Shown: positions 6,574 through 55,889 of the stretch, one piece after another
How the letters are laid out: every line of letters begins with the position of its first letter
Numbering within the stretch: the stretch's first letter is position 1
Virus record (IMG/VR): IMGVR_UViG_3300031972_003003
Location: 1-60,295 of that record
Direction: 5' to 3' (one strand)
Length of the DNA: 60,295 bases
DNA from: a virus
Made by a program: the position numbers and the translations under genes
The notes under the pieces: generated by a model
What the model saw: only the letters and a program-made list of their open reading frames with translations
Told to the model about the DNA's origin: nothing
The model's database searches: none

Positions 6574-6598
6574 CTGGCAAAGATAATTCACAAAACAG

Positions 6599-6629: not shown

Positions 6630-6658
6630 ATATAAGTTAAAAAGATAAATAATAGGTT

Positions 6659-10361: not shown

Positions 10362-10595
10362 ATGGATAATTTTAACTATAAAAAATATTTAAAAAATAAC
10401 CCACTTTTATCTGAGGAGGATTCTATAAAAGAAGGTAAAAGATTATTCCATTATACTATTCCAAAAAATGAATTCGGAATGACTAGAATGGTCATTAAAG
10501 CAAAAGATAGAGAAGAAGCAGATGAAAAAATAGCTGCTGAATATCCTGATGGAGGATATGAATATAAAGGTAAAGGAGCTAAATTTGAATATTAA
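10362..10595 (+). CDS. Candidate prohead cargo protein, 77 aa
   Basis: MDNFNYKKYLKNNPLLSE followed by ED repeats the leader of the 8651 gene, giving a likely gp21-type cut after Glu18. The remaining 59 residues form a small alpha/beta module (RLFHYTIPKNEFGMTRMVIK, then REEADEKIAAEYP). It is directly behind an exact late motif. Function after packaging is unknown. Confidence 0.55.
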   Translation: MDNFNYKKYLKNNPLLSEEDSIKEGKRLFHYTIPKNEFGMTRMVIKAKDREEADEKIAAEYPDGGYEYKGKGAKFEY

Positions 10596-24561: not shown

Positions 24562-27500
24562 ATGTCAAGAATATCAATTGAACTTCTTAAAGATTTATCT
24601 GGTGTATCAGGATCATTTAGTTTTTCCGGTAATGATGATCTACAATATAATGCCACTCAAAATATAAAAGCACAAGTTAGTGAAGAAACTTACGTAGAAT
24701 ACGTTTTAAGTGATCCTGAAAATAATACTATAAGTGTAGTTGATTATTATAATAACTATTTTATAGACAGCGATGGTGAAACACTTACAGTTAATCTGGA
24801 AAATGATATATTAACATATTTTAATGTTCTTTCAGGAGAATATATTGTTGAATATAATGTATATAATAAAAAATGTGGATCCTCTTCTGAAAAAAACTTT
24901 TTTATTAATGAAATATCACCATCAAGAACTGAAATAAGAGCTGATTCTAGCGTTATAGATGATTTTGTTTTAGCTGATAAAACTCTTCAATTTTTAAATG
25001 AACGTGAACAATCAACTTATTTTAAGGAATTTTTATTAAATTTTGGAAATAATAATCTTATTGCTGGTGTAAATATTGCTTTAGATACTACAAGTGATAA
25101 TACTCAAATATTAATAAAATTAAAAAATCCTCTTCCTAACGATTTTGATATTAATAGTCAATTCTGGATAGTTGAGCAGATAGGTGCTAATCCTAATTAT
25201 CTTATAGAGTTTTCTCCAGATATTAGAGAACCATTAACTGTAGGTATTCCACTATCAGGACCTAATTTAAATTTAATTGATAGAGATCTAACAAGTAAGG
25301 AAACCTTTACAGCTACTCTAGAATCCCTTGAGACTACTAATCTTCCAAGCTCCTCTATATATCAGTTAAATAGTGTAATATCTTCTTCAGGTATTAACAT
25401 TAATTTAGATTATAATAAATTTGAAGAATTTGTTTTCTTTTCTTCTGCTACAGAAAGACTAAAAAACTTTTTTTATAAAATTAGTCTATTACAAGATTAT
25501 TCTAGCTCTTTAAATACAGCAAACTCCACAGCCAATAATACATCTACAACATCTCATATATTTAGAGATAAAATTAATCAATTAGTATCAAATTTTGATA
25601 ACTATGAAAAATTTCTATATTATGAAAGCGGATCAAATAGCTGGCCAAAAGTAAATGATACACCACCATTTCAACTTCATGTTACAAGTAGTACTGAGGT
25701 ATTACAATGGTATGGATCTCTAGATGAACAATCATCAAATTATGGTGGAATATTATTAAGTGCATCATTGTATGATAATTTAAATAGAAATAATTTATTA
25801 TACTCTATCCCTGAATTTATTAGACTAGATCCTAATAATAAACAATACGAAGTATTTATTTCAATGATAGGTCAACATTATGATAATATCTGGACCTATA
25901 CAAAAGATATAACGAAAAAATTTGATGCTGATAATAGAATAAATTTTGGTATATCAAAAGACTTAGTAGCTGACGCTATAAAAGATTTTAGTTTAAAAAT
26001 ATATGAAAATAATTTTTCAACTTACGATCTATATAGTGCATTTACAGGGTTCCCACAAGATAGTAGCTCACTAGGAGTAACAGGATTATCAGATTTTCCA
26101 CCACTAATTTATGGATTTTCTTCCTTTGGTAGTGGATTATATGGACCACTACCTTTAGGTACTCAATTAGTAACTAACCTAGTAACAGCTTCTAATGATA
26201 TTATACCTATTGATGATATTAATAAAAGAACATATAAGAAAATATATCACAATGTTCCTTATCTTTTAAGATCTAAAGGAACTAAAACAGGTTTAAAAAG
26301 TTTAATTAGCTTGTATGGTATTCCGGAAACCATACTACAAGTAAATGAATTTGGTGCTAAAGATAAAGTATCAGGTAATGATTGGGATTTTTATAGAAAA
26401 ATTTATAACAAAGCTTTATTCATTTCAGGAAGTAGCTCACCTGATAATATGATTAATACCCAATGGGCTAATCATGATAATGATAATGGATTAAACCCTG
26501 ACTGGGGTATATCACCCTTAGTACCACGCACTGTTGAATATAGATTTAAATCTACTCTTGATCCAAACACCCTACCATCACAATCTAATATAAGACAATC
26601 TACCTTTACTATATTAGATAGTAATATTAGTTCAACATCATCATCAGTATCAGTAGTTTTAGAATATAACGGATCAGGATCATATACTGGCTCCTATTCA
26701 GGTAGTATTATGGATCCAAGAAACAATTACGCAGACCTTACCCTTTATGTAAGTGGATCAAGTCAATATTATTCCTCCTCGATTAATTTACCGTTTTTAA
26801 ATAAAGATTGGTGGAGTGTAATGTTACAATATCATAGCTCATCCAATACCTTTGAACTTTACTCAGGTAATAAAATATACAATGGAGGCAACGGCACTAA
26901 ACTAGGCTTTACTGGTAGCACAACCATTACAGTACCAGGAGCAGATGATACTTTATGCTGGAGAAGCGGAAGCTTAGCCCGAATAGGAGCTAGCAAAAAT
27001 TCCTATAACTTTGCTCCCGGAATAACAGGATCAAGTGAACTATCAGGATCAGTTCAAGAAGTCCGATATTGGATAAACACTCTATCAGAAAGTGTATGGC
27101 ATAATCATATTATGAACCCGCTATCAATTGAAAATGGTGTTTTAACAGGATCAGAATCTGCTAGAGAATCGCTAGCATTTAGAACTAGAGAGGGTGAAGA
27201 TTATTCAATAAAAGGTACACTTACAAATACTATATCTGGAAGCTCTATACACCCAAAAGTAACAGGATCATTAATAACTACTGCATCCTTTATAAGTGGA
27301 GGTAATAAAAATAGCTTTTACAATACTACCGGATTATATAAATCAAATTCAGAAACTCAATTTTTAAATCAACCAGTAGTAGGTATAAAAAATAGAGTTA
27401 CGGATAGAATTAGAGTAGAAAATTTAGAATTTCCTCAAGGAAATGCACTATCACCCTATCGTAGAATTGAACAAAACAATTATTCCTCAAGATCATTCAC

Positions 27501-30500
27501 TGAAGGAATAAATTATATTGAAGTAGGATTTTCTCCCTCAAATCAAATAAATGATGATATTATATCAGAGCTAGGTGGATTTAATATTGAAGATTATATA
27601 GGTGATCCTAGATTAGCCTCTTCTAGCTTAAATTATTATCCTGCTTTAAATGATTTAAGAGATAAATTTTTCGAAAAATATTTAAAAAATTATGAAGTTT
27701 TAGATTTTATTAGATTAATTAAGAATTTTGATAATTCTTTATTTAAAATGATAAAAGATTTTACTCCTATAAGAAACTCTTCCGCTACTGGTGTAATAAT
27801 AAAACAACACCTTCTAGAAAGACAAAAATATCCTGAACCTGTAATGACATTTACGAATGTAAGTAAAACAGGATCGATATTACCATCATCTAAAAATTTT
27901 ATAACGGGATCTAGCGACTTTCCACAATATTCAACCTCTGGATCCTCTATATATAAATTTAGCGGAGGTACTGGAGGATCATTTGAGGTATTTAATAGTA
28001 CTGCCTTTCATCCATACGGTCCTAACGGAACAGGGCCCGATAATAGATTTGATATAACTCAATCACTATCTGAATCTATTATATTCCAATCAGGAAGTAC
28101 TGAAAGAATTTATACTAATCAAGATGAATTTTATGATGGTATTTTCCCTGGAACTAATATAATAGTAACAACTCAATCCTTAAATCCAGGTTGCTTACAG
28201 TTTTCTAATATAAATACCGAAGGTGTTGAAGTTGAGCATGAATATGATAGATTTGTATATAGACAACAAAGCTGTTCATTAGATAGATTTGAAAATCCTA
28301 ATACAGCTCCTCGTACTGGGGAAATATTTTTCTTTAAAAAATTCGGTCAAAATAAATTTACTAATATTAAGATATCTAATACAACTAAAGCTGGTATAGA
28401 TATTTCAAACGTATTAACGCAAATAACTACACTAGCTTTTGATTTTTCTGGTATAAATCAAAGTATAGCTGTAGATTTTGTACAAAGTGGTCAAGGATTT
28501 ACTGAATATGAAGTAGTATCACCATTTAGTACTTACGATATATCCAACTTTACATCTAATTTTTTAAATTATTCAGCTTCAGTTGAAAAAACATCTTCAT
28601 TTCATTTAGTAAAAATTGCAGATCAAGGAACAGTACCATCCTCATTTACTGAAACTATTATTATTGATAATTTTGATATTGAAAATGATCCAAGCGGACT
28701 TTTAAATAGTCAAAGTGGTATATATACATCACCATTAACTAATAATAGAAGACTTAATTTTACCTGTTCTATCTCAGGCTCTTATGCATTTACTAACAAT
28801 ACTACCGCAAATATACAGTATGGTGTAAAAGTAGGGTTAAAAAATATAACAAGAAACGAAATATTAAAAAGTAACGGATTTACAGTAGGATTAACTGCAG
28901 GAAATACCTTTACACAATCATTTGATTTTGATTTTAAAGAGGAACTTTTTCCACAACAAGCATTAGTTACAGGAGATCAAGTTGCAGTAGTAGTAGAAAC
29001 GGATTTTGATAATAATATGTTTGATTTATTTGGATCAAGCTCTTTATCAATCTCCTCTTCATTATTTGCTATTAATCAAAATGGAGTAACAAGTAATGGT
29101 CCAGTATCAACTATAACTTCTATTCAACCAGGATACTTATCTGATAACACACACTTCTTTAATCATTTTGATTGTCAACCACTACTAAATAATGTTTCAG
29201 AAAATACAACTTCAGGAATATTTTTTGATATAGATTATTCATCAGGAACAGTTTTACCAGTAAACTTTTTACAAATTTTAAACAGAACTGCTGTAAAAGC
29301 TCAAGTACAAGATTCTAATTATTTCTCTAAATCTTGGTCTAATATAAGATATAATGGAGTAAAATTAACTAGTGCTATATTAAATGAATATACCGCTGCC
29401 AATACTCTTGTACTTCCTGATGGTACAATATGGAAAGGAGATATATCGTTTGGTAAAGAACCTGTGATAGAACAAACTAAACCGAATTTTGGGTTTTTTA
29501 AATTATTAGTCCCAACCTCTCCTGAATTAGAAAAAGGAACTCAAGTTAAATTACAATATTTAATAAATAAACAAGGTCAAGCATTTAAACCATTATTAAA
29601 TTCTCCATCATTCTTTGATGTGGAAGGAACATATGAAACTAATAATTTAGTAGATATAGCTCTTAATGATAGTTTTCAAACTGATGGAGGAAACTTTCCA
29701 ACTAATGCAGCAGCTGGTATAAATTTAGATAATTTTAATACTCAAGCTAGAGTTATAAGAGGAGCTAGAAGAGTAGATCCAATCCTAACTACTCAATTTG
29801 CATCTATATTTGATGGAAGTGTTGGTGAAGAATTTACAGGATCTATTAACTTTACTAATCCATCAGGATTAGATACCAACTTTAGCTTTCAAGGTGGAAA
29901 ATTTGCTGATACAACTTACAATCCAACATCCAACCCAAGCACAGGGATCTTAACAGTAAGCTGCTCTAATGAGGGATACGATCCAGCAGGACTATACGAC
30001 CACCCAAATAGTATATGGGAAAATACTACTGGAGATAGATTTAATCTAACACCAATACGCTTTAGGTTTCAAGGTGCAGTACTAAACAGTACAACAGCAA
30101 CATCTAATATATCTATTGAATGGATAAGAACCGGCGTACCAAATGTATTTTTTGGATTAACTAATATACCTGCAAATACTTCTTTAATATTTAATGATGG
30201 TAGTGTTGCAGCTGGAGATCCTTTAGCAGTACCTGATTTAGTAACTCCATATATTTTTCCTGCAGCAGGGGATCAGGTTAGAGTTAGACTAGAATTTACT
30301 AGTTTAGGAGTTGTTAATTTACAAAATACTAATTTTTACGGAGAACCTGAACAACTTCCAGTAGTGGCACTTACAGGAAGTTTCTGGGAAACAGGAAGCG
30401 CGTTTCCTAACAGTACACAACTTACATCCTCTAGAGATTTAGCTCAATATTATAATACATCAACTCAAGTACAGTATCCAGAATCAACATTTAAACCTAT

Positions 30501-30843
30501 TAATGAAATATTTACTATTAAATCAGGAGATCAATTTAGATTTTTAGGATCAGAAAATAATGTACATACAGTAAGTAATGTATCAATAATTAATCAAGGT
30601 GCTGAAACAGGTAAAATATTAGTTGATATTCAACCACCTATTGGTAATGGATTAAATTTAGATAAATTTTTAATTAGAAGATTTAATAAAGATGGTACGT
30701 CAGTAATATTAGATCTTAATCCTCCTAACTCAGGATTTGGTACAACAAGTGGAGTAGTAAAAAATGTTACAGTAAATGAAGAAGTAGAAAGTAATATTAA
30801 TGTTATACTATCAGATTTAGTTAAGGATGGTACTATAAATTAA
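24562..30843 (+). CDS. Giant tail/fibre structural protein, 2093 aa
   Basis: This is the largest protein of the window. The N-terminal 600 residues contain a conserved-looking stretch (YKKIYHNVPYLLRSKGTKTG, then LISLYGIPETILQVNEFGAK) that resembles the tail-protein-I style region of baseplate proteins. Residues about 658-850 look like a LamG/concanavalin-type sandwich (VEYRFKST, then WWSVMLQYHSSSNTFELYSG, then SGSVQEVRYWINTLSES), a likely carbohydrate-binding unit. The remainder is Ser/Thr/Asn-rich beta structure. Length and composition indicate a baseplate-periphery or long-fibre protein used in host recognition. It is the centre of the late tail block. Confidence 0.7.
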   Translation: MSRISIELLKDLSGVSGSFSFSGNDDLQYNATQNIKAQVSEETYVEYVLSDPENNTISVVDYYNNYFIDSDGETLTVNLENDILTYFNVLSGEYIVEYNVYNKKCGSSSEKNFFINEISPSRTEIRADSSVIDDFVLADKTLQFLNEREQSTYFKEFLLNFGNNNLIAGVNIALDTTSDNTQILIKLKNPLPNDFDINSQFWIVEQIGANPNYLIEFSPDIREPLTVGIPLSGPNLNLIDRDLTSKETFTATLESLETTNLPSSSIYQLNSVISSSGININLDYNKFEEFVFFSSATERLKNFFYKISLLQDYSSSLNTANSTANNTSTTSHIFRDKINQLVSNFDNYEKFLYYESGSNSWPKVNDTPPFQLHVTSSTEVLQWYGSLDEQSSNYGGILLSASLYDNLNRNNLLYSIPEFIRLDPNNKQYEVFISMIGQHYDNIWTYTKDITKKFDADNRINFGISKDLVADAIKDFSLKIYENNFSTYDLYSAFTGFPQDSSSLGVTGLSDFPPLIYGFSSFGSGLYGPLPLGTQLVTNLVTASNDIIPIDDINKRTYKKIYHNVPYLLRSKGTKTGLKSLISLYGIPETILQVNEFGAKDKVSGNDWDFYRKIYNKALFISGSSSPDNMINTQWANHDNDNGLNPDWGISPLVPRTVEYRFKSTLDPNTLPSQSNIRQSTFTILDSNISSTSSSVSVVLEYNGSGSYTGSYSGSIMDPRNNYADLTLYVSGSSQYYSSSINLPFLNKDWWSVMLQYHSSSNTFELYSGNKIYNGGNGTKLGFTGSTTITVPGADDTLCWRSGSLARIGASKNSYNFAPGITGSSELSGSVQEVRYWINTLSESVWHNHIMNPLSIENGVLTGSESARESLAFRTREGEDYSIKGTLTNTISGSSIHPKVTGSLITTASFISGGNKNSFYNTTGLYKSNSETQFLNQPVVGIKNRVTDRIRVENLEFPQGNALSPYRRIEQNNYSSRSFTEGINYIEVGFSPSNQINDDIISELGGFNIEDYIGDPRLASSSLNYYPALNDLRDKFFEKYLKNYEVLDFIRLIKNFDNSLFKMIKDFTPIRNSSATGVIIKQHLLERQKYPEPVMTFTNVSKTGSILPSSKNFITGSSDFPQYSTSGSSIYKFSGGTGGSFEVFNSTAFHPYGPNGTGPDNRFDITQSLSESIIFQSGSTERIYTNQDEFYDGIFPGTNIIVTTQSLNPGCLQFSNINTEGVEVEHEYDRFVYRQQSCSLDRFENPNTAPRTGEIFFFKKFGQNKFTNIKISNTTKAGIDISNVLTQITTLAFDFSGINQSIAVDFVQSGQGFTEYEVVSPFSTYDISNFTSNFLNYSASVEKTSSFHLVKIADQGTVPSSFTETIIIDNFDIENDPSGLLNSQSGIYTSPLTNNRRLNFTCSISGSYAFTNNTTANIQYGVKVGLKNITRNEILKSNGFTVGLTAGNTFTQSFDFDFKEELFPQQALVTGDQVAVVVETDFDNNMFDLFGSSSLSISSSLFAINQNGVTSNGPVSTITSIQPGYLSDNTHFFNHFDCQPLLNNVSENTTSGIFFDIDYSSGTVLPVNFLQILNRTAVKAQVQDSNYFSKSWSNIRYNGVKLTSAILNEYTAANTLVLPDGTIWKGDISFGKEPVIEQTKPNFGFFKLLVPTSPELEKGTQVKLQYLINKQGQAFKPLLNSPSFFDVEGTYETNNLVDIALNDSFQTDGGNFPTNAAAGINLDNFNTQARVIRGARRVDPILTTQFASIFDGSVGEEFTGSINFTNPSGLDTNFSFQGGKFADTTYNPTSNPSTGILTVSCSNEGYDPAGLYDHPNSIWENTTGDRFNLTPIRFRFQGAVLNSTTATSNISIEWIRTGVPNVFFGLTNIPANTSLIFNDGSVAAGDPLAVPDLVTPYIFPAAGDQVRVRLEFTSLGVVNLQNTNFYGEPEQLPVVALTGSFWETGSAFPNSTQLTSSRDLAQYYNTSTQVQYPESTFKPINEIFTIKSGDQFRFLGSENNVHTVSNVSIINQGAETGKILVDIQPPIGNGLNLDKFLIRRFNKDGTSVILDLNPPNSGFGTTSGVVKNVTVNEEVESNINVILSDLVKDGTIN

Positions 30844-34870: not shown

Positions 34871-35634
34871 GTATTTTAAAAAAATCTTATAATAGATTAT
34901 TAGAAATTTCCGACGATCACAAACAAATTACTTTAAAAGATTCTCGGTTTTATCAAAGAAATGGTGAATATTATCCATCAGTTACTTATGTTTTAGGATG
35001 TTATCCAAAAGGAAAGCATTTTGAAGATTGGTTAAAAAGAGTTGGATACTCTGCCGATTATATTGTTAAAAAAGCAGGAGAGCAAGGTACTCAAGTTCAC
35101 GATTTATGTGAAAGATACTTAAAAGGAGAAGAAATTAAATACTTTGCTGAGTTTTCAACACCATTATATGAACCATTAGTATGGGAAATGTTCTTAAGAT
35201 TCGTAGAATTTTGGGAAACTTTTAAACCTACTCTTATAGAAACAGAGGTATTTTTATTTACTGATAAGATGAAAGTAGCAGGAACTTGTGATTTAGTAGT
35301 AGAAATTAATGGTGAAAGATGGATACTTGATATTAAGACATCTAATACGATTGCATCTACTTACGAACTACAAACAGCTATTTATAAAGAAATGTATGAA
35401 GAGTGTTATGGTAAAGAAATTCATAGAACTGGTATCTTATGGTTAAAATCCAGTAAGAGAGGTCCTAGGAAAGATAAGTTTCAAGGGAAAGGATGGGAGA
35501 TTATTGAAAGTAAACGCTCATTTGAAGATAATATAGAAATCTACAAATGTGTTAAGAAGCTTTTTGATATAGAAAATCCTAAACCTGAACCATTAATGAA
35601 AAAATTAAATACTGTAATAAAACAAAGTGAATAG
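34867..35634 (+). CDS. PD-(D/E)XK exonuclease, RecB/Cas4-like, 255 aa
   Basis: The motif order of RecB-family nucleases is visible: GEQGTQVHDL with His78, VAGTCDLVVE with Asp142, ILDIKTS with Asp155 and Lys157, and YELQTAIYKEMY with Gln169. It probably trims or processes DNA ends in replication and recombination or degrades host DNA. No iron-sulfur cysteines of Cas4 are present. It starts in an ATGA overlap with primase and ends eight bases inside the 1614-codon gene. Confidence 0.8.
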   Translation: MSILKKSYNRLLEISDDHKQITLKDSRFYQRNGEYYPSVTYVLGCYPKGKHFEDWLKRVGYSADYIVKKAGEQGTQVHDLCERYLKGEEIKYFAEFSTPLYEPLVWEMFLRFVEFWETFKPTLIETEVFLFTDKMKVAGTCDLVVEINGERWILDIKTSNTIASTYELQTAIYKEMYEECYGKEIHRTGILWLKSSKRGPRKDKFQGKGWEIIESKRSFEDNIEIYKCVKKLFDIENPKPEPLMKKLNTVIKQSE

Positions 35635-38600
35635 TCTTTCTCAATTTTTAGTAGAGTCCATTATGGATGAAAAAGGAACGATAGTTTCTTATGGTGGAGG
35701 ATTTAAACCACCTCATAAAGGACATTTTAATGTAATCAAAAGGATGATTGAAAAATATCCTGATGCAGAAGTATACAATGTCTTTGTTGGTAGTAAAGAT
35801 AGAGGTGGTATTTCACAACAAAATGCATTAGATATTTGGAAAATATATAAAAAATATTTAAGCCCTAAAGTATCAGTAAGACAATCTCAAATACCAATTA
35901 CTGATGTTTATGGTACAGCTAAAGAAAATCCTGATAAGAACGTTATTTTTGCAGCCGGATCAAGAGGGGAAGAAGATGATAAAGAACTATTAAGGAGATT
36001 AAGCTCATATCATAAGTATGATAACCTCCAGTTAGATGTAGTTAGAGATGAAGGAGGTATTTCTGCAACTCAATTAAGAAAAACTAATCCTGATCAATTA
36101 GCTACCTTTTTTCCGGATGAATTATCAGATGAAGATTTAGAAATAGTAACAAATATAGTTCTAGGAGTTAACGAAGATACAACTCGTACTACTAAAAAAG
36201 GAGCCCCTGGTACATTTAAAGCAAAAATTACAAAAGCATATGGAGGGCCGGTTACTATAGCTAAAGCAAAAAAGTTTAAAAATAGAAAAGGAGCTACTGC
36301 TCATGATAAATCACAAGCTAATTGGTTTATTAATATGCATAGTGCTAAAGAAGGCTTTGATCCTAAGCTAGGAAAAGACCCATATGGCATTTCTCAATAT
36401 TCTAGAGAGATTATGGAAGCTAAAAAAGCATCTGAAATGGATCCCCTCTTTATAAAAGATATTGAAAAAAATTATGGTGAAGTTGATTTAGAAAATGACT
36501 ATTTTAATGATGAATTAACACGATATTATAAAACAACTGATATAAATAAAGAAACAGGAGGAATTACTCACGATGTTATTAATCTTCCATCCTTTAAAGA
36601 TTCATTTGATAAACTAAAATCAGCATTCGCTTCAATAAAACAACTACAAACTACCAAACAAGTAGCAAACGACCAGAAATTTCCTGAGTTAGTAGACAAA
36701 GTTAAAGATGCATTTAATAAATATCGTACACATTTACGTACAAAATACCCTTCTCAATATAAAACTATTAAAGAAGAAGTAGATAAAATGGTAAATCTTC
36801 TTAATGAAGGAGTTTATGATTCTATTACTACTGAAGTTTCTAGCGATATATTTAATGCTTGGAAAGAATTTCATGATAAATACCCTGACCAGGAGGAATT
36901 TATTTATCAAAAAAATTACGAACTACAAGATAAGAAAGGTCGCGATATGGAATTTGATCTTCAAGCAAAAATTGTATTTAAAGAAACAGAAGAAGGTATT
37001 TATAGTGTAGATGGAGGAGCAGAAGAAGGAGATGAAGACATTCAAGGAGAGCTCACTGTAATATTCCAAGTAGATCCAAGAGATTTACCTAATATGTGGT
37101 CTACTATTTCAATGGATCTTAAAGATGTAGTTAGACACGAAATAGAACATTTATCTCAAAGAGGATATAATGTTGTTTATAGTAAAGAAATGGAAGATAA
37201 TAGAGCATTAAGAGCTCTTATAAAAGCAAAACTACTACCAGATAAAGAATATTATAAGCTAGAAGATGAAATTCCCGCTATGCTGCAAGGAATGTACTTG
37301 AAAGCAAAAAAATCTAAAGTTCCTTTCAAAGATATAATACAAAACTACTTTGATAAAGTAGGATTATCTCAAGAAGATCGTAATGAAATCATTGCTCTCT
37401 GGAAGCAATACTTACCATCTTTATCTTTACCTCCTATCGATGAAATTATAAGAGAGCAAAAAGAAAAAATTAAGTTTAAAAGACCTAAATTAAATTATTC
37501 ATACACTTCTTTACAACCTTATATTGATAAGGAAACTATGGAAGAGCATTTTGATAAGCATTTTAAAGGATATACTGATAAACTTAACACAGAATTAGAA
37601 GAAAAGAATATTACTGTAGATGCTGAAGATCAAATTCAAGCAATACAAAAAATATTAAGCAAATATCCTAAAAATACTAAGATTAGAAATAATGGAGGTG
37701 GTTTTTACAATCACGTTTTATATTTTGAGAATATGACTCCTGATTACAAAGCTCCATCAGCTAATTTTAGAAAGATGTTAGAAGAAAACTTTAATTCTTT
37801 CTCAGAATTCAAAGAAAAATTTAAGGAAGCTGGGTTAGGTCAATTCGGATCAGGATGGGTTTTCTTAATTAAAAAAGGAAATAAGTTAGTTATCGAAGCT
37901 TATCCTAATCAAGATAATCCATATTTAGATAAAGACTTTGATGGTAAGATTTTGATTGCTATGGATGTTTGGGAACATTCTTATTATCTTAAACATAAAT
38001 CTAAAAGAGGTAATTATATAAATGATTTCTTTAGAGTAGTAGATTATAAAGTAGCTGAAGAAAGATTAGAGGAAGAAGAACTTTTAAACGAAAGTTTATG
38101 GGCAAATATAAATGCTAAGAAAAAAAGAGGTGAAAAATCTTCACATAAAAACTCTAAAGCTTACAAAGCTGCTGTAAAATCTGGAGAAAAGTTAAAAAAA
38201 AGTAAACTAAAAGAAGAAGATCCTAAAAAAGGTACTGGAAAAAAGCCTGAAGGATCTGGAAGACGTCTTTATACAGATGAAAACCCAAAAGATACAGTAA
38301 AAGTTAAGTTTAGAACTAAAGAAGATATAGTTGATACTCTAAATACAAAGACTTTTAAGTCTAAATCACATGCACGACAATCACAAGTTATTAACTTAAT
38401 ACATCAAAGAGTACGAGCTGCATACCAAAATGCAAAAGATCCAGATACAAAGAGTAGATTAAAGAGAGCTTTCGATTATATTACTGATAGAAAGGAAGCT
38501 TCTAAGGAAAAAACAAAAAGATTACAAAAGAACGAAGGTAAAAAAGGTGGTGGAAGAGGAAATGTTGGTTCTCGATATAGAGCTATAGAAAAAAGAGGAA

Positions 38601-40471
38601 ATAAATTTTATTATAGACAAGATGATCCATTAGGGGCAGGTGTAAGACAAGAATTTGGTCCATTTAAAACTAAAGCTGCTGCTTTAAGGAAAATGGGAGA
38701 ATTTCCTCCCGCTACAAGCTACAGAGATATAACTGAAGGGGTAGATAATCAATTATTAACTGAATTTATAACATTTTGTTGTAAAAAACTTGGTATTTCT
38801 GATAATTTTTTCGTATCTTTACATAGTAATAGGGATAAATTACAAACTTTAGCTCAATATAATCTAGTAGATAATTCTATAGATGTATATGTTAAAGATA
38901 GACTAATGGCTGATATTTTAAGAAGTATAGCACACGAATTAGTACACCATCAACAACTAGAAAATGGTGATATTGATTTAAATAACATGCCACAAGATAT
39001 TGGAGGTACTATTGAGGATGAAGCTAATGCAGTAGCTGGTCAATTAGTTAAAGAGTTTGGTTATGATAATCCAGAAATCTTCGAAAATATAGACCCAAAA
39101 GCTCAAAAAAAGCATCAAAAGAATCCAACAGCAGTTCCATTTGGTTCGGCATATTCTCCTGTTAAAGAAGATGGTAAGGAAGTATCTGATAAAAATATGG
39201 ATGATTATAAAAAATCAAACATTAAAGAGGATAACGGTAAACCAAAAGCTATTTTTATGGCTGGTCCTGCCGGATCAGGTAAAACTTATATTTTAAATAA
39301 ATTAGGAATAAAAGGATTTACTACAATTAATATAGATGATGAATTTGAAGAGCTTTTAAAGAAACAAATTGGTAAAAGTAGGTTTGCTGATATGTCTCCT
39401 GAAGAACTTTCACAAGCTGCAAAGTTAATGGGTCAAGCTCGAAAAACAACTTCTGCTAAATTAGATAAAGCAAGAGAATCTTTAACTGATGTTATTATTG
39501 ATGGAACTGGAGCAGCTTCTAATCCTATTCTTAAGAAGAAAAAACAATTTGAAGATCTAGGATATGAAACATTTATGATATTAATTTATGTTTCTCCTAT
39601 TACTTCATTAATGAGAAATAAAGGTAGAGATAGAAGTTTACCACCAAGTGCTATTTTACAAACCTGGAAAGGAGTAGCACAAAATATGGAGATTTATAAG
39701 AAAGAATTTGGAGATAATATCGTTCTAATTAATAACGATCCAGAAGATGCAGATAAAACATTTGATGATCCGCAAGAGATAATGAAACAATTTCCATCTC
39801 CAAAAGGTAAACCTAAAACTCCAGAAGAAATAGAAAAAGCTCGAGAAAAGAAAAAGAAACTAAATCAAGAGATACAAGATTTATTAAAAATAGAAAGAGA
39901 GTTTGATAATACAAAAGATGCTAAATCGAAAGTTATGAATTTTACAAAAGGTTTTATTAAAGAAGAAAAAGAAGGTAAGTTTAACATCTATTTAGATATG
40001 GATGGAGTAGTAGCTGACTTTGATCAACGATTTATAGATTTAAGTGGTATGCTACCAAAAGAGTTCGAAAATAAATTTGGTCGAAAAGAATTTTGGAACT
40101 TTATAGATGAAAAAAATAAATTAAAATTCTGGGTAGGAATACCAGAAATGTCAGATGCTAAGCAATTAGTAGATTATATTACTCCACACGGATTTCAAAT
40201 GTTAACAGCTCCTTCTATTAAAAAACAATCCTATTTAGGAAAAATGCTTTGGATTAAAAATCATGTAGGATCTTTATTTTCTTTTAAACCATATATTAAT
40301 TTTAAGAAAGCAAAAGAAAAGCATAATGTTAAATCTAATTTAACTCCTAACGATATACTTATTGATGATAGAGAAGATACTATTGATAGATGGAATGCAG
40401 CAGGCGGCACCGGTGTACATCACACTTCAGCTTCCTCAACTATAAATAAATTAAAGAAATTAGGTATATGA
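35627..40471 (+). CDS. Multi-enzyme candidate capsid-cargo polyprotein, 1614 aa
   Basis: The frame starts at GTG 35627 (MNSLSQFLVESIMDE, a cargo-type leader); ATG 35663 is an alternative. In order: residues 17-175 nucleotidyltransferase with HKGH at 30-33 and ISATQLR at 145-151; 184-387 basic and helical; 395-615 a domain with HEIEH at 504-508; 620-816 a full Mn-type superoxide dismutase with ligands His641, His696, Asp780, His784 and the NQD glutamine; 823-1038 basic modules (SLWANINAKKKRGEK, GSGRRLYTDENPKD); 1047-1180 with HELVHH at 1103-1108; 1205-1400 P-loop kinase, GPAGSGKT at 1213-1220, zeta-toxin-like; 1450-1614 HAD or deoxyribonucleotidase-like with DMDG at 1457-1460 and IDDRED near 1580. 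Short segments ending in Glu (VNE 183, LLNE 394, LLNE 822, LLTE 1046, IKE 1201, IKE 1446) separate the units like gp21 cut sites. Packaging and cleavage are inferred. Confidence 0.75.
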   Translation: MNSLSQFLVESIMDEKGTIVSYGGGFKPPHKGHFNVIKRMIEKYPDAEVYNVFVGSKDRGGISQQNALDIWKIYKKYLSPKVSVRQSQIPITDVYGTAKENPDKNVIFAAGSRGEEDDKELLRRLSSYHKYDNLQLDVVRDEGGISATQLRKTNPDQLATFFPDELSDEDLEIVTNIVLGVNEDTTRTTKKGAPGTFKAKITKAYGGPVTIAKAKKFKNRKGATAHDKSQANWFINMHSAKEGFDPKLGKDPYGISQYSREIMEAKKASEMDPLFIKDIEKNYGEVDLENDYFNDELTRYYKTTDINKETGGITHDVINLPSFKDSFDKLKSAFASIKQLQTTKQVANDQKFPELVDKVKDAFNKYRTHLRTKYPSQYKTIKEEVDKMVNLLNEGVYDSITTEVSSDIFNAWKEFHDKYPDQEEFIYQKNYELQDKKGRDMEFDLQAKIVFKETEEGIYSVDGGAEEGDEDIQGELTVIFQVDPRDLPNMWSTISMDLKDVVRHEIEHLSQRGYNVVYSKEMEDNRALRALIKAKLLPDKEYYKLEDEIPAMLQGMYLKAKKSKVPFKDIIQNYFDKVGLSQEDRNEIIALWKQYLPSLSLPPIDEIIREQKEKIKFKRPKLNYSYTSLQPYIDKETMEEHFDKHFKGYTDKLNTELEEKNITVDAEDQIQAIQKILSKYPKNTKIRNNGGGFYNHVLYFENMTPDYKAPSANFRKMLEENFNSFSEFKEKFKEAGLGQFGSGWVFLIKKGNKLVIEAYPNQDNPYLDKDFDGKILIAMDVWEHSYYLKHKSKRGNYINDFFRVVDYKVAEERLEEEELLNESLWANINAKKKRGEKSSHKNSKAYKAAVKSGEKLKKSKLKEEDPKKGTGKKPEGSGRRLYTDENPKDTVKVKFRTKEDIVDTLNTKTFKSKSHARQSQVINLIHQRVRAAYQNAKDPDTKSRLKRAFDYITDRKEASKEKTKRLQKNEGKKGGGRGNVGSRYRAIEKRGNKFYYRQDDPLGAGVRQEFGPFKTKAAALRKMGEFPPATSYRDITEGVDNQLLTEFITFCCKKLGISDNFFVSLHSNRDKLQTLAQYNLVDNSIDVYVKDRLMADILRSIAHELVHHQQLENGDIDLNNMPQDIGGTIEDEANAVAGQLVKEFGYDNPEIFENIDPKAQKKHQKNPTAVPFGSAYSPVKEDGKEVSDKNMDDYKKSNIKEDNGKPKAIFMAGPAGSGKTYILNKLGIKGFTTINIDDEFEELLKKQIGKSRFADMSPEELSQAAKLMGQARKTTSAKLDKARESLTDVIIDGTGAASNPILKKKKQFEDLGYETFMILIYVSPITSLMRNKGRDRSLPPSAILQTWKGVAQNMEIYKKEFGDNIVLINNDPEDADKTFDDPQEIMKQFPSPKGKPKTPEEIEKAREKKKKLNQEIQDLLKIEREFDNTKDAKSKVMNFTKGFIKEEKEGKFNIYLDMDGVVADFDQRFIDLSGMLPKEFENKFGRKEFWNFIDEKNKLKFWVGIPEMSDAKQLVDYITPHGFQMLTAPSIKKQSYLGKMLWIKNHVGSLFSFKPYINFKKAKEKHNVKSNLTPNDILIDDREDTIDRWNAAGGTGVHHTSASSTINKLKKLGI

Positions 40472-42258: not shown

Positions 42259-42762
42259 ATGGCACAAGATAACTTTAACATCGGTAAATTCTTAAAAGAA
42301 TCAGTAAAAAACTCTTATACTAAACAAGTAGCAGGAGAAGAGAAAAAAGAATTATTAAATGAAAATTTCGTTGGTTTAGAACCTATTAATACTATTCCTA
42401 CTAGAAATAAAGAAGATTATGAATTAGCATTTTCTAAATTTTTAGGAGAAGAAAAAGAAGAAACTCACGAAGAAATGGAAGAAGATTTACATGTAGTACC
42501 TGTTGGAGTAGATAATAAGATTGATCATTCTAATCATGGTATAGATGATGAAGGTAGAATGGCTAAATCTCAATTATATAAAATTGCTAAATATGCTTCT
42601 GAATTATATAAAATGATGGATGATAATACACAACTTGATGCATGGGTACAAGCTAAGCTTACAAAAGCATGTGATTACGTTGGTACTGTAAAACATTATC
42701 TAGAAGGAGAGGAAGCAATTGATATGTTAGGAGAAGAAAAAGAAGATGAACATAAAGGATAG
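42259..42762 (+). CDS. Candidate prohead core/cargo protein, 167 aa
   Basis: The start MAQDNFNIGKFLKESVKNSY is followed at residues 34-65 by a module (NENFVGLEPIN, then KEDYELAFSKFLGEE) that is repeated in the 51541 protein of the head operon. Several Glu-ending sites (LLNE, FLGEE) could be cut by gp21. The C-terminal half is helical (SQLYKIAKYASELYKMMDDN). The match to a protein encoded next to the prohead protease is the best evidence that this distant cluster belongs to the head. Confidence 0.6.
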   Translation: MAQDNFNIGKFLKESVKNSYTKQVAGEEKKELLNENFVGLEPINTIPTRNKEDYELAFSKFLGEEKEETHEEMEEDLHVVPVGVDNKIDHSNHGIDDEGRMAKSQLYKIAKYASELYKMMDDNTQLDAWVQAKLTKACDYVGTVKHYLEGEEAIDMLGEEKEDEHKG

Positions 42763-43195
42763 GATAAAGAATCTTGTTAAAGATGTATTTAATCAGTTAG
42801 AAAAACCACAGTATAAACCAGCAGGTTTAGATGTTTTAACTGACTATCCTTCTTTATATGAAACTTTAAATGATCTTTTTGATAATCAATATTTTAATTT
42901 TGTAAAAACTATTGATTGGGTATCTCCAATACCAACAACATTTAGAATAGTACTAGTTAATGGAGCTGAGTTTTATTTAATTTATTCTAAAAATTCATGG
43001 ATAGCCCAAGTTGCAGGTAAAAAATATTTTTTAATTAAATTACCTCAAAAACAAAGAGCAGTAAACGCTATATCAAGATTATTAAGACATTATTATGTTG
43101 ATGTTAATAATGAAGAAGATAGCGGAGGAGTAAGTATTGAACCACCAGCTGATGATACTCCAGCAGAGGAACCACCAGCTCCAGAAGAAGAGTAA
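42746..43195 (+). CDS. Hypothetical head-cluster protein, 149 aa
   Basis: The start overlaps the previous gene by 17 bases. MNIKDRIKNLVKDVFNQLEK is an amphipathic leader-like helix, followed by a small alpha/beta domain (PTTFRIVLVNGAEFYLIYSK, then AQVAGKKYFLIKLPQKQRAV) and a Pro/Glu-rich acidic tail of about 30 residues. The acidic tail and leader fit an internal head protein. Function is unknown. Confidence 0.5.
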   Translation: MNIKDRIKNLVKDVFNQLEKPQYKPAGLDVLTDYPSLYETLNDLFDNQYFNFVKTIDWVSPIPTTFRIVLVNGAEFYLIYSKNSWIAQVAGKKYFLIKLPQKQRAVNAISRLLRHYYVDVNNEEDSGGVSIEPPADDTPAEEPPAPEEE

Positions 43196-43196
43196 T

Positions 43197-43550
43197 ATGA
43201 ATAGCTTTGATTTAAAAAAATATCTATCTGAAAATAAACTTACTGAAGAACATTACTCAGTAAAAATACCACCTGCAATGATGCAAATAGCATGTAGATG
43301 CTTAGATAAAGCTAATATTCCACATAGTGTAGATAATACTACTTCATCAGTTATATTTAATAACGAATCTGGAATGAAAAGGGGTAAAGATATTTTTAAT
43401 ATGATTTATAGAGGAGTAGATCAATTTAATGAAGGTGTAGATATTGATGATAATGAAGCAGATTCTAGAGAAACTTCTGTAGATGATAATGAAACATATT
43501 CAGGTCAAAACAGAGATGAGACAGATAATATAGAAAAAATGGGCTTATAA
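43197..43550 (+). CDS. Candidate prohead cargo protein, 117 aa
   Basis: I start at ATG 43197, just after the previous stop, because MNSFDLKKYLSENKLTE matches the leader of the 10362 and 8651 proteins; an earlier in-frame ATG at 43137 would overlap the previous gene. A cut after Glu17 would leave a 100-residue domain with VKIPPAMMQIACRCLDKANI and an acidic C-terminal tail. Function is unknown. Confidence 0.55.
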   Translation: MNSFDLKKYLSENKLTEEHYSVKIPPAMMQIACRCLDKANIPHSVDNTTSSVIFNNESGMKRGKDIFNMIYRGVDQFNEGVDIDDNEADSRETSVDDNETYSGQNRDETDNIEKMGL

Positions 43551-48476: not shown

Positions 48477-50435
48477 ATGGCTGATATTAATAATCCAATG
48501 CCACCATACGAAGATGGTAAGAATGAAGGTCAAATGGGACCTCAAACAGGTATTTTTGCAACTCTTAGAAGACTATTTTCTACTGATGTAGTAATTAGAA
48601 ATGCAGGTGGTAAAGAATTAACTGTAGTTGATAGTGATCATATCCAATCATATGGTAAATATGATACTAATGCATTAGTTGATAGATTTAATAGAATTTA
48701 TACATCTGGTCCTACTTCATTATATGGATATCAAAGTAATTTTAATTATCAATTATTAAGACCACAATTATACTCTGAATATGATGTAATGGATACTGAT
48801 GCTATTATAGCTTCAGCCCTTGATATAGTAGCTGATGAATCAACTTTAAAAAATGATATGGGGGAGGTATTGCAAATACAATCTTCCGATGATGATATTC
48901 AACAAATATTATATAACTTATTTTATGATATATTAAATATTGAATTTAATATGTGGCCATGGGTAAGAAATATGTGTAAATATGGAGACTTTTTTCTTAA
49001 ATTAGAAATATCTGAAAAATATGGTGTATATAATGTTATACCATATTCAGCATTTCATATTGAAAGGCAAGAAGGATGGAATAGAGATAATCCATCAGAG
49101 GTAAGATTTAAGTATTTTCCACAAGGCATATCTCAAGGTCAAACAGGATACTATAATGTAATGGGAGCAGGATCAGAGGATAATAAAAACCAAATTATTC
49201 TCGATAACTATGAAGTAGCTCACTTTAGACTATTAACTGATACAAATTACTTACCATATGGTAGAAGTTATTTAGAACCTGGTCGCAAATTATTCAAGCA
49301 ATATACTTTAATGGAGGATGCAATGTTAATCCACCGTATAGTAAGAGCTCCTGAAAAAAGAATTTTTTATATTAATATTGGTAATATTGCTCCTAACGAA
49401 GTTGATAATTTCATGCAAAAAGTAGTTTCAAAAATAAAAAGAACTCCTTATATGGATGAACAAACTGGAGAATATAATCTAAAATACAATTTACAAAATC
49501 AATTAGAAGATTTCTATATACCAGTGCGTGGTAATGATGCTGCTACAAAAATTGAAACAACTAAAGGTTTAGAATATGACGGTATTCAAGATGTAGCTTA
49601 TTTAAGAGAAAAATTATTTGCTGCATTAAAAGTTCCTAAAGCATTTATGGGTTATGATGAAAACTTAGATGGTAAAGCAACTTTAGCAGCACAAGATATT
49701 AGATTTGCAAGAACAGTTGAAAGGATTCAAAGAATTATAGTGTCTGAACTATACAAAATAGCATTTGTTCATTTATATACATTAGGATATAGAGATGATA
49801 ATTTAACTAATTTTAAATTATCTGCAACTACTCCATCAATTATTTATGATCAGGAAAGAGTTGCACTACTAAAAGAAAAAGTAGACTTAGCAAATCAAAT
49901 AAAAGATAATAATCTATTACCAACTGATTGGATTTATGAAAATATATTCCATTTTGGAGAAGAAGAGTATCAAGAATATAGAGATTTACAAATCGAAGAT
50001 GCAAAGCGTAAGTTTAGATTATCTCAAGTAGAAGCAGAAGGTAATGATCCTGTTAAAACTGGTAAATCGTATGGTACTCCTCATGATTTAGCATCATTAT
50101 ATGGTCCAGGAAGATATGGGCAAAAACAAGAAGTACCAAAAGGTTATGATGAAGAAAACCCAGAGGGTAGACCAAAAGAAAGAGCATCTACTATAGGTAC
50201 TCAAAATAATAACTTTGGTAGAGATCCGTTAGGAAGTGGTGGCGTTAAGAATGATGTAAATGATAATGGACGTATAAATCCTAATGCAAAGAAATTCAAA
50301 TTTAGTCAAGCAGAAGCTAAAGTAAATAATTTATCTAACAATGGTTTATTTAATCGTTTAGATTCTAAAAAACGCGTAATCTTAAAAGAAGAAGATGGGT
50401 TATTAGATGAAAATAATATTTTAAATAACGATTAA
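48477..50435 (+). CDS. gp20: Portal protein, T4 gp20-like
   Basis: A 652-residue portal protein. Typical blocks are LRPQLYSEYDVMDTDAIIAS, LDIVADEST, LPYGRSYLEPGRKLFKQYTL, RIVRAPEKRIFYINIGN and VPKAFMGYDENLDGKATLA. The dodecameric portal forms the DNA entry vertex and starts prohead assembly. The C-terminal 90 residues are hydrophilic and flexible. Gene order with terminase and protease supports the call. Confidence 0.95.
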   Translation: MADINNPMPPYEDGKNEGQMGPQTGIFATLRRLFSTDVVIRNAGGKELTVVDSDHIQSYGKYDTNALVDRFNRIYTSGPTSLYGYQSNFNYQLLRPQLYSEYDVMDTDAIIASALDIVADESTLKNDMGEVLQIQSSDDDIQQILYNLFYDILNIEFNMWPWVRNMCKYGDFFLKLEISEKYGVYNVIPYSAFHIERQEGWNRDNPSEVRFKYFPQGISQGQTGYYNVMGAGSEDNKNQIILDNYEVAHFRLLTDTNYLPYGRSYLEPGRKLFKQYTLMEDAMLIHRIVRAPEKRIFYINIGNIAPNEVDNFMQKVVSKIKRTPYMDEQTGEYNLKYNLQNQLEDFYIPVRGNDAATKIETTKGLEYDGIQDVAYLREKLFAALKVPKAFMGYDENLDGKATLAAQDIRFARTVERIQRIIVSELYKIAFVHLYTLGYRDDNLTNFKLSATTPSIIYDQERVALLKEKVDLANQIKDNNLLPTDWIYENIFHFGEEEYQEYRDLQIEDAKRKFRLSQVEAEGNDPVKTGKSYGTPHDLASLYGPGRYGQKQEVPKGYDEENPEGRPKERASTIGTQNNNFGRDPLGSGGVKNDVNDNGRINPNAKKFKFSQAEAKVNNLSNNGLFNRLDSKKRVILKEEDGLLDENNILNND

Positions 50436-51541: not shown

Positions 51542-52329
51542 TGAGCTCATTACAGAATCAATATAATAGTATAAAAAAAGGAAAAGGAAATAAAGATGGA
51601 CTATTAAGAGAATCCAAAAGATTATTTCCAAATTATATTCCTAACTCTGCTAATTATAATCAAGCTATAGATATTTTAAAATCTAGACAAATTATAAATG
51701 AAAACGTTGTAGGACTTCAACCTATTAATCAACTTCAACCTGCTAAAAAAGAAAACTTCGAAAAAGCATTCGAAAAATTTTTAGCAGAAGAAACAGTAGA
51801 TGCAAAAGCAACTGAAAGAAAACAATCTAAATTAGTGGATGAGCCTTTATCACATCAGTATCCATATCAAGAAAAAGATAGATTAGATAATCAAATATTT
51901 GATCAAATTATGTCTGGATATTATACTGAGATGAAAGATCCTAAAAATACTGATAAAACTGAAGAAGAATTAAAAGCAATTGTTCTTAAGAATCTTGAAA
52001 AAGATCCATTATATTATACTAAAGAAGCACAATTTGGTATTAAAGGTCTCGGATATAGAGATGACGTACCTGGTGCAGGTTTAGTAAAAGAACCAACTGG
52101 AAAGTATAAAGCTTCTGGATATGGTGATCTAAAAGAGAGTAAACAAGTAACTGAAGCTTCTTCAATGCCAAGCGAAGAATTATTATCTTTATTAGATGAT
52201 ATGTTAGAAGATTTAGTTGATAATTCTGTTGACGCAGAACAAGCAGTAAAAAAAGTAATCAGTATGAATCCTGCACTTAAGCATTATGAAACTGCACTTT
52301 TACAATTAGCTGAACCAAAATTCCCATGA
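51541..52329 (+). CDS. Prohead core protein candidate, 262 aa
   Basis: A 262-residue protein between the small prohead protein and the protease. Residues 53-84 (NENVVGLQPIN, then KKENFEKAFEKFLAEE) are the module shared with the 42259 protein. The C-terminal 60 residues are acidic and helical (EELLSLLDDMLEDLVDNSVD). Sites such as FLAEE and LKESK could be cut by gp21. Position corresponds to internal core proteins gp67/gp68 of T4, though sequence similarity is not evident. Confidence 0.6.
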   Translation: MSSLQNQYNSIKKGKGNKDGLLRESKRLFPNYIPNSANYNQAIDILKSRQIINENVVGLQPINQLQPAKKENFEKAFEKFLAEETVDAKATERKQSKLVDEPLSHQYPYQEKDRLDNQIFDQIMSGYYTEMKDPKNTDKTEEELKAIVLKNLEKDPLYYTKEAQFGIKGLGYRDDVPGAGLVKEPTGKYKASGYGDLKESKQVTEASSMPSEELLSLLDDMLEDLVDNSVDAEQAVKKVISMNPALKHYETALLQLAEPKFP

Positions 52330-52916
52330 AGCAAGTTTTAGTAGAAACGATTAATTTTTCACCTGTTAGAGCACTAACAGAGTCAAAATCTCATAGAGGT
52401 AATCCTATAGTAGAAGGAATACTTGCTACAGTAGAGACTGTAAACGAGAACGGTCGTTTTTATAAAAAGTCTATTTGGGATAGAGAAGTAGATAAATATA
52501 AAGTACTAATAGCGGAAAAAAGAGCATTAGGAGAATTAGATCATCCTGATTCTATGAATATAAATTTAAAAAATGTTTGTCATAATATTGTAGATTTATA
52601 TTGGGATGGTAAAAATATAATGGGTAAATTAGAAATCTTACCAACACCATCAGGTCAAATAGTAAAAAATCTAATTGATAATGGAATTACTTTAGGAGTA
52701 TCTTCTAGAGGAACAGGTACATTACAACAAAGAGATGGTGTAAATGAAGTACAAGATGACTTTGAGCTATTATGTTGGGACTTTGTATCTACACCATCTA
52801 ATCCAGGATCATTTGTACATCCTATAAGAGAATCAAAAGAATTTAAATCTACTCCTATTACAATACATAATACTATTTCTGAACTATTATGTATGCACGG
52901 TCAGTGCGAAATATAA
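52326..52916 (+). CDS. gp21: Prohead protease, T4 gp21-like
   Basis: A 196-residue serine protease of the herpesvirus-like/prohead fold. His73 lies in GELDHPDS and the nucleophile is Ser126 or Ser127 in LGVSSRGTG, followed by DFVSTPSNPGS. It matures the prohead by cutting the scaffold, the capsid N-terminus and, in T4, packed internal proteins after Glu in L/I-x-E sites. In this phage its substrates probably include the many cargo leaders noted elsewhere. The start overlaps the previous stop (ATGA). Confidence 0.93.
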   Translation: MKQVLVETINFSPVRALTESKSHRGNPIVEGILATVETVNENGRFYKKSIWDREVDKYKVLIAEKRALGELDHPDSMNINLKNVCHNIVDLYWDGKNIMGKLEILPTPSGQIVKNLIDNGITLGVSSRGTGTLQQRDGVNEVQDDFELLCWDFVSTPSNPGSFVHPIRESKEFKSTPITIHNTISELLCMHGQCEI

Positions 52917-54176: not shown

Positions 54177-55889
54177 ATGGCAAATTTAATTAACAACTTG
54201 TTAGAAAGCTCTGCTTCAGGATGGAAATCCATGCAGGGTGATGCGGCGCGCTTAGCCGGCAAGTGGGCTAAAACTGGTCTACTTGAAGGAATTGAAGGCG
54301 AAGTAGAGCGCAATAATATGGCTATGATTCTTGAGAATCAGGCTAAACAACTCGTAGTTGAGCAATCATCTACACAAGGAGGTTCAGCATTTACATCTAA
54401 TGCAGGAACTGGTGCTAACTGGGCAGGAATTGCTCTTCCGTTAGTAAGAAAGGTATTCGGACAAATTTCTTCTAAAGAGTTTGTTTCCGTACAACCTATG
54501 AACTTACCTTCAGGTCTTGTATTCTTTCTAGACTTCCAATATGGTGGTACAGGAGATGCAACAAATAAAACATTTACAGCTGGAGGTAATGTATTCGAAT
54601 CAGGATCTATGTATGGTCTTACTGATTCAGGAGGAGGTGATCCATCGGAAGGTCTTTATGGAGCAGGTAGATTTGGTTATTCATTAAACCAGTTCTCTTC
54701 TTCAAACTTGACTTTCCATTCTGGATCTACTTCAACTTATGCTGTTAATACAGCATCTCTTGCTGTTTGGGCTGACGTTCAGTATAATTCTGATCTTTCA
54801 GCTTCAGTTGCAGCAGGTGAACTTACTAAGATTGTTGTAGATGCATCTGATTTAACTACTCCAGATCTTAGAGCAGTAAGATCATTTGTACTTACATCTG
54901 GTTCAAGCTTAACAAATATTGCTAATTCATTACCAAAGTATACTACTACTAGAGATAATGATACTAAAGTAGTATTTGTATTTGATAATCAGATCCGTAC
55001 GATTATGAAAGATACTCGTACTGATTATAACTGTTTCTTCTATAAGCAGCCTGAAGATAATTCAAGAGGTGATTTTGAAGATAATTCAGGTGCAGGTCGT
55101 CCTAATGCAAGAACACAAGCTACTGATGCATTAAATATTCCTCAAGTAGATGTGAAGCTTAAGTCTGAAGGTATTATTGCTAAGACTCGTAAGCTTAAAG
55201 CACAATGGACTCCTGAATTCGCTCAAGATTTGAATGCTTATCAAGCACTTGATGCAGAAGCTGAATTGACATCTATTATGTCTGAGTATATTGCACTTGA
55301 GATTGATCTTGAGATTCTTGATATGCTTATTGTAGATGCAACTGCTGCTGACGAGTATTGGTATGCTACTAATAACCGAGCTCTAAATTCAACTAAAACT
55401 GGATACGATGATGCTGGATTTTATAATACTCAAGGTCAATGGTTCCAAACTTTAGGAACTAAGATGCAAAAAGTATCTAATAAAATCCATCAGAAAACGT
55501 TAAGAGGAGGAGCTAATTTTGTAGTAACTTCACCAACTGTAGCAACAATTCTTGAGTCTATCCCAGGATTTGCTTCTGCAGGTAATGGAGATGCTGCTGC
55601 AGCTACTTATGCTTTCGGTATTCAAAAAGTGGGACAACTTAATAACAGATATACTGTTTATAAGAACCCATATATGAATGAAGGATTAATCTTAATGGGA
55701 TATAGAGGATCTCAATTCCTTGAAACTGGTGCTACTTTTGCTCCATATATTCCATTGATCATGACTCCTTTAGTATACGATCCAGAAACCTTCACACCAC
55801 GTAAAGGTCTATTGACTCGATATGCTAAGAAAATGATTCGTCCAGAATTTTATGGTCGTATCTTTGTCAACGACTTGAACGTACTTTAA
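54177..55889 (+). CDS. gp23: Major capsid protein, T4 gp23-like
   Basis: A 570-residue HK97-fold capsid protein. The N-terminal 62 residues are the removable part, with a likely gp21 cut in LVVE at Glu62, close to Glu65 in T4. Later blocks (ALPLVRKVFGQISSKEFVSV, QPMNLPSGLVFFLDFQYG, RKLKAQWTPEFAQDLNAYQA, and the C-terminal TPRKGLLTRYAKKMIRPEFY) are classic gp23 signatures. Codon choice is less AT-biased than neighbours, as expected of a very highly expressed gene. A strong terminator follows. Confidence 0.96.
   Translation: MANLINNLLESSASGWKSMQGDAARLAGKWAKTGLLEGIEGEVERNNMAMILENQAKQLVVEQSSTQGGSAFTSNAGTGANWAGIALPLVRKVFGQISSKEFVSVQPMNLPSGLVFFLDFQYGGTGDATNKTFTAGGNVFESGSMYGLTDSGGGDPSEGLYGAGRFGYSLNQFSSSNLTFHSGSTSTYAVNTASLAVWADVQYNSDLSASVAAGELTKIVVDASDLTTPDLRAVRSFVLTSGSSLTNIANSLPKYTTTRDNDTKVVFVFDNQIRTIMKDTRTDYNCFFYKQPEDNSRGDFEDNSGAGRPNARTQATDALNIPQVDVKLKSEGIIAKTRKLKAQWTPEFAQDLNAYQALDAEAELTSIMSEYIALEIDLEILDMLIVDATAADEYWYATNNRALNSTKTGYDDAGFYNTQGQWFQTLGTKMQKVSNKIHQKTLRGGANFVVTSPTVATILESIPGFASAGNGDAAAATYAFGIQKVGQLNNRYTVYKNPYMNEGLILMGYRGSQFLETGATFAPYIPLIMTPLVYDPETFTPRKGLLTRYAKKMIRPEFYGRIFVNDLNVL

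Follow-up and report, generated by a model that had tools for sequence, protein, structure and literature searches.

A candidate modular head-cargo polyprotein with prohead-protease-type joints in a marine T4-like phage

Background

The packaging of internal proteins into the phage head has been dissected for IPIII of T4, in which ten residues are enough for targeting and packaging: positions 4 and 7 of this leader matter for targeting and positions 8 and 10 for processing, Asp at position 10 stopping processing and leaving targeting unaffected (PMC9026906). In the ejection proteins of phiKZ and SPN3US, the prohead protease cuts propeptides after x-x-Glu, often at several sites in each propeptide (PMC10052503). 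A further class, the polyvalent proteins (Iyer et al. 2017, PMC5512222), joins many unrelated domains, including zincins, in single chains, whose delivery with the DNA has been proposed.

The gene described here, found in a marine T4-like phage, has features of all these systems. It probably encodes a modular head-cargo polyprotein, which would be packaged, cut by gp21 and injected as freed modules, as far as can be judged from sequence.

Phage and locus

The window, i.e. the whole stretch of DNA analysed (60,295 nucleotides; IMG/VR virus record IMGVR_UViG_3300031972_003003), belongs to a marine T4-like phage encoding terminase, portal, gp21 (S77), gp23 and PhoH. Its terminase is closest to that of Flavobacterium phage immuto (58% identity). 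The head genes of interest are the following:

48477..50435, + strand, portal protein gp20, head assembly context (PHROG 213, 7e-57)
52326..52916, + strand, prohead core protease gp21 (peptidase S77), proposed processing enzyme (Pfam PF03420, E=1.4e-30)
54177..55889, + strand, major capsid protein gp23 (Pfam PF07068, 8e-73)

From its sequence, gp23 carries a leader of its own, MANLINNLLE↓ (Glu at residue 10; arrows mark putative cuts), and a likely maturation site, QLVVE↓Q (Glu 61); immuto gp23 likewise has a leader of similar short type and a VxE maturation site. Between gp21 and gp23, a putative scaffold gene (window 53029-54159) contains long Met/His/Glu-rich repeats (MHEGDMDEEMHKEE) with a metal-binding look, and the tail region includes an ORF of 2093 residues without a PHROG match (window 24562-30843).

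The gene under study is a single ORF of 1614 residues on the plus strand (35627-40471), with a GTG start, lying where the original prediction had placed it. Its N- and C-terminal parts are repeated at 99-100% identity on contigs of other metagenomes, residues ~615-789 being the only stretch without such a copy. With most of the ORF recurring on other contigs and fusions of the same modules present in diverged relatives, it is a real ORF, and an assembly artefact or false fusion was rejected. An alternative, leaderless start at the ATG of residue 13 was also rejected, because homologues have an ATG at the GTG position, followed by the same leader.

Module organisation of the protein

The claim that one gene joins several enzymes was confirmed: a nucleotidyltransferase (NT), two HExxH domains (MP1, MP2), a Mn-type superoxide dismutase (SOD), a kinase (KIN) and a HAD domain were recognised by profiles or motifs. 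The modules, all on the plus strand, are arranged as follows:

35627..35671, +, N-terminal leader, capsid-targeting-like, MNSLSQFLVE↓SIMDE↓ (LxE at residue 10, MxE at 15)
35672..36175, +, NT, HIGH-superfamily nucleotidyltransferase (NMN/NaMN adenylyltransferase-like), residues 16-183 (GGFKPPHKGH and ISATQLR motifs)
36176..36808, +, U1/U2, basic and helical region, residues 184-394 (partial matches in relatives)
36809..37456, +, MP1, zincin-like metallopeptidase domain, residues 395-610 (HEIEH, downstream Glu)
37457..38092, +, SOD, complete Mn-type superoxide dismutase, residues 611-822, ending LLNE822 (Pfam Sod_Fe_N/C, E=2e-18/1e-28)
38093..38215, +, SLW, short basic module SLWANINAKKKRGEK, residues 823-863, ending LKE863 (stand-alone and fused copies in relatives)
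38216..38581, +, DPK, basic helical module, residues 864-985, highly conserved in the alignment of relatives (DPKKGTGKKPxGSxRRLYTDE)
38582..38737, +, B2, small module RYRAIEKRGNKFYYRQDDPLG, residues 986-1037, ending DITE1037 (homologous modules in relatives L011, L022, L023 and L026)
38738..39076, +, LLTE1046 spacer, then MP2, second zincin-like domain, from residue 1047 (HELVHH, downstream E)
39077..39229, +, linker module (..NIDPKAQKKHQKNPTAVPFGSAYSPVKE..), ending NIKE1201 (swapped in or out between LxE sites, L026 vs L041)
39230..39901, +, KIN, P-loop kinase, zeta/PezT-like, residues 1202-1425 (Pfam zeta_toxin 7e-10; 2p5t PezT 1e-7)
39902..39964, +, linker, ending IKE1446 (from sequence)
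39965..40468, +, HAD, 5'-3' deoxyribonucleotidase-like domain (DMDGV), residues 1447-1614 (PHROG 2643, E=6e-24)

The NT domain matches the profile of 2h29, a nicotinate-nucleotide adenylyltransferase (E=2e-4), and weakly Pfam CTP_transf; it is followed by the U1/U2 region with candidate sites VNE183, IME264 and LLNE394. MP1 begins immediately after E394 and ends with IIRE610. Its RHExEHL motif and the downstream Glu are invariant in an alignment of 19 sequences, and its AlphaFold model (pLDDT 85.6) is folded from residue 4, only the last 4 residues falling below 50. Sequence and fold searches of the PDB gave no solved-structure match for MP1, the only matches in the fold search being uncharacterised phage proteins. 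In MP2, HExxHH is invariant in an alignment of 22; Pfam M78 matches weakly, and a sequence search found no solved structure. The SOD has both domains and all the metal ligands, with 3tjt as the best solved match (1.5e-47). DPK, whose mean column identity is 74% in 14 sequences, is predicted to be helical (pLDDT 71); a fold search in the PDB gave nothing usable, and its one match in phage records was partial, to a Pelagibacter phage. For HAD, a sequence search gave no PDB match. At least two domains of unrelated activity thus share one phage polypeptide and, with HEIEH and HELVHH conserved, the chain includes predicted zincin-like metallopeptidase domains, both as in polyvalent proteins.

The N-terminal leader

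This protein begins MNSLSQFLVE↓S and T4 IPII and IPIII begin MKTYQEFIAE↓A, with identical spacing; the leader of about ten residues thus ends in hydrophobic-x-Glu as in the T4 internal proteins, and the S77 protease is encoded by the same phage. Homologues start with ATG and read MNQLTKFLVE/DGILNE; three of them (L013, L026 and L022) have Asp at position 10, with another LxE following at 14-15. The NT-led protein of many relatives has no leader and starts right at the domain (MIALYPGAFKPP), so that it would need some other way into the head, or else stays cytoplasmic. Moreover, leader-like N-termini were counted in immuto in 8/140 early-region ORFs vs 13/81 late ones, and the motif is therefore not exclusive to late genes.

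Other genes of the window carry related starts. Two tandem genes of 171 aa (window 9307-9822 and 9819-10334) have very similar N-termini, with leaders ..LIKEIISE↓VGEG and ..ILKEIISE↓VGEG, and are likely further head-cargo candidates. A longer leader type, FNYKKYLxNNPLLxE / FDLKKYLSENKLTE, is found on several genes (window 8651-9304, 10362-10595, 42259-42762 and 43137-43550); in immuto, MENFDLKKFLVE↓NKLT, found on three genes, may be compared with it.

Protease-type sites within the chain

The Glu sites listed by the original prediction (394, 822, 1046, 1201 and 1446) are all present at those residues, and further ones were found at E610, before the SOD, and at E863, E1037, E15 and E264. Protease-type sites stand at every module joint, those of SLW being weaker. 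The strict pattern [LI]xE occurs 18 times in the protein: 14 copies lie between domain cores, in stretches that make up 27% of the protein, against 4 within the cores, so that the pattern is roughly 10-fold denser between cores (Fisher p=1e-4, computed over Glu). As the core boundaries were delimited by the analyst, this spacing test is supportive and not blind.

A blind test was made with a site matrix built solely from the leaders of the relatives' stand-alone genes and scored on 127 Glu. E10, E394, E610 and E1046 took ranks 1-4, followed by E1425, E863 and E1037, each of which sits at a joint or within a linker; low ranks (~20-28) went to E822, E1201 and E1446. Scores of individual sites do not exceed the shuffled maxima; the single-site matrix being weak against shuffles, the case rests instead on the homologous joints of relatives.

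Separate genes, fusions and swaps in relatives

One scan of viral contigs gave 161 related stretches, the best 80 of which were examined. Among the matches listed, about 70 marine viral contigs carry the same modules, either unfused and side by side or fused in a different order. Most of these listed matches have individual genes next to one another, running KIN, NT(+MP2, +MP1), HAD, while their SOD and basic modules stand alone or are fused elsewhere. The original prediction had suggested searching related phages for the same domains as separate, leader-bearing genes, and such genes were found for KIN, SOD, HAD, B1 and MP1: a leader of ~10 residues ending L/I-x-E (e.g. MIKLSDLILE↓) directly precedes the domain. 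In fused proteins, an LxE stands at the joint, the point homologous to the end of the stand-alone leader. Thus, stand-alone KIN reads MISLVQLLNE↓VEGKPKAI vs fused YKKSNIKE↓DNGKPKAI; SLW reads MKLAELKQLVRE↓GLWANINAKKK in a relative vs fused ELLNE↓SLWANINAKKK; and SOD reads MKLSKLILE↓NKEFKLPALSFGY stand-alone vs IIRE↓QKEKIKFKRPKLNYSY fused. Since relatives encode these parts in individual genes that bear the same tag, the chain looks like a strip of cargo to be packed and cut.

The joints were counted in the fused relatives among the matches listed, near-identical ones excluded, as [LIVMF]xE at most 2 residues from the module start. The pattern was found at 18/18 joints of MP1, 14/17 of DPK, 5/6 of HAD and 4/5 of SOD, vs 99/1466 (6.8%) at shifted control positions; at the SLW joints of these listed matches, Glu is kept in 26/29 and a hydrophobic P3 in 9/29 only. 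Glu-anchored fused joints have a hydrophobic residue at P3 in 70%, at P2 in 4% and at P5 in 13%, P1' is mostly G/S/A, and no signal appears at P5-P12. Because the rows share descent, p-values from such counts are too small, yet the upstream contexts differ widely.

Whole modules are also exchanged at these borders. L008, whose two flanks share 93-95% identity with those of this protein, has ~75 residues in place of residues 607-1038 (SOD, SLW, DPK and B2); the swap borders are PPIDEIIRE610 (PPIQE↓S in L008) and DITE1037/LLTE1046 (ILDN in L008). The near-identical phages L026 and L041 differ by one module, bordered by AVKE↓N and VNE↓K. In another pair, L046 vs L048 (ORF residues 278-442), a whole 165-residue module is inserted right after MKE↓E in a 96% identical protein. 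Further modules found in relatives are plastocyanin (4e-16), Pol-beta palm and GNAT. A plastocyanin/azurin-type copper domain adjoins the SOD in L012 (residues 664-747 of the ORF at 1428-5660, Pfam 4e-16), which has a GNAT domain too, and in L013 (residues 829-913 of the ORF at 3062-6829, Pfam 7e-14). The gp21 gene is present on 7/12 relative contigs, all of them fragments.

Alternative explanations

A cargo polyprotein with prohead-protease-type joints, as originally predicted, is strongly supported at the level of sequence by the separate-gene homologues with a leader, the conserved LxE in fused homologues, the T4-type leader and gp21 on the contig. The existence of the modules as separate leader-bearing genes, together with the leaderless NT of many relatives, could also fit a cytoplasmic multifunctional enzyme formed by gene fusion, its LxE joints being uncut scars of former leaders. 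This is unlikely: the joints conserve only P4-P1 and P1', the rest of the leader being lost, which is the pattern expected under selection for cutting rather than from ancestry, and the N-terminal leader is retained in this phage. The chain might also be a polyvalent protein as defined by Iyer et al. (2017): it would be injected in one piece, or not packaged at all, its zincins would cut it inside the host, and LxE would be incidental. Two zincin domains are indeed in the chain, and zincin-driven processing of multidomain phage proteins has been proposed (PMC5512222); however, the LxE joints are equally kept in zincin-free two-module proteins (L032; L054, a 268-aa DPK-SLW protein), LxE also ends the leaders of single-domain genes, and the joint signature (hydrophobic P3, Glu P1, small P1') is of the prohead protease type, so that own-zincin cutting appears distinctly unlikely.

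Finally, the chain might be packaged through its leader, with the leader alone being cut and the enzymes reaching the host still joined together. No site scores higher in the matrix than the leader, but the LxE of internal joints is conserved in diverged fusions, and leader-only cutting is considered very improbable. Against the cargo polyprotein itself speak the SLW joints, often without hydrophobic P3, the ILDN that replaces LLTE1046 in L008, and the often leaderless NT. A literature search for published virion proteomics of immuto or related phages found none.

Proposed mechanism and meaning

Packaging, cleavage and injection of this polyprotein are what we infer from these data. The T4-type capsid-targeting leader would take the chain into the prohead core, where gp21 (S77), once active, would cut after L/I-x-E at the joints, freeing the nucleotidyltransferase, zincin MP1, SOD, basic modules, zincin MP2, kinase and nucleotidase. 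The freed modules would stay in the mature head and may enter the host with the DNA, to act before phage gene expression; for this delivery, the leader is the basis. The modules behave as interchangeable cassettes: in relatives they are separate, each with its own leader, or fused in other orders, with plastocyanin, Pol-beta NTase or GNAT added. For marine T4-like phages in general, the balance tips slightly towards a cassette system in which any LxE-tagged enzyme travels alone with a leader or in a gp21-cut polyprotein, a varied redox, NAD/nucleotide and peptidase set, comprising SOD, plastocyanin, adenylyltransferase, kinase, nucleotidase and zincins, being delivered in fixed ratio at infection.

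The roles in the host (superoxide removal, restoration of NAD or nucleotides, cutting of host proteins) are speculative. SOD, plus plastocyanin in relatives, might suggest redox protection, and NT, KIN and HAD, equally speculatively, a part in the metabolism of NAD or nucleotides, which is a known theme in the counter-defence of phages (PMC9503650). If the proposal is true, a tailed phage would use its head-maturation protease as many RNA viruses use polyprotein proteases, obtaining equal enzyme amounts from one chain. The tag would also allow head cargo to be picked from sequence only among uncharacterised genes of marine T4-like phages. Furthermore, the delivery of preformed SOD and NAD/nucleotide enzymes by phages would become a testable case, with a bearing on how phages counter NAD depletion or oxidative stress as host defences.

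Comparison with known systems

A relative from a named phage, whose host is Flavobacterium sp. LMO8, is gp088 of Flavobacterium phage immuto 2-6A (annotated NadR-like, 907 aa), which, like this protein, joins several modules in one chain: Pol-beta NTase, NT, MP2 and MP1. It has a KVMAE↓GRYD joint, and an adjoining HAD gene, gp087, carries the leader MGNLADLLLE↓. Unlike the present protein, gp088 lacks SOD, kinase and basic modules, and its HAD is a separate gene.

The proposed head cargo resembles IPI, IPII, IPIII and Alt of T4 in its ten-residue leader, hydrophobic at position 8 and with Glu at 10, and in the S77 protease and gp23 on the contig. The T4 internal proteins are small and single, with one leader each, whereas this chain contains several enzymes with internal sites. 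With the phiKZ/SPN3US ejection proteins it shares multiple x-x-Glu sites of prohead protease type; those proteins, in contrast, lose propeptides only, no multi-enzyme chain being released (PMC10052503). Polyvalent proteins are alike in their many unrelated domains, their zincins and the proposed delivery with DNA, but own-zincin cutting has been proposed for them (PMC5512222), while the joints of this chain are prohead-protease-type sites; a word search of that paper gave no mention of SOD.

A literature search found no description of a chain that holds several enzymes, has prohead-protease joints and exchanges its modules. The original prediction, that such a cargo had not been described, thus holds in part: injected polyvalent proteins of several domains were already known, as were internal proteins of T4 that are targeted by a leader and cut by gp21, and it is the combination of T4 internal-protein targeting with polyvalent-type multidomain cargo that seems new, as far as the literature was searched.
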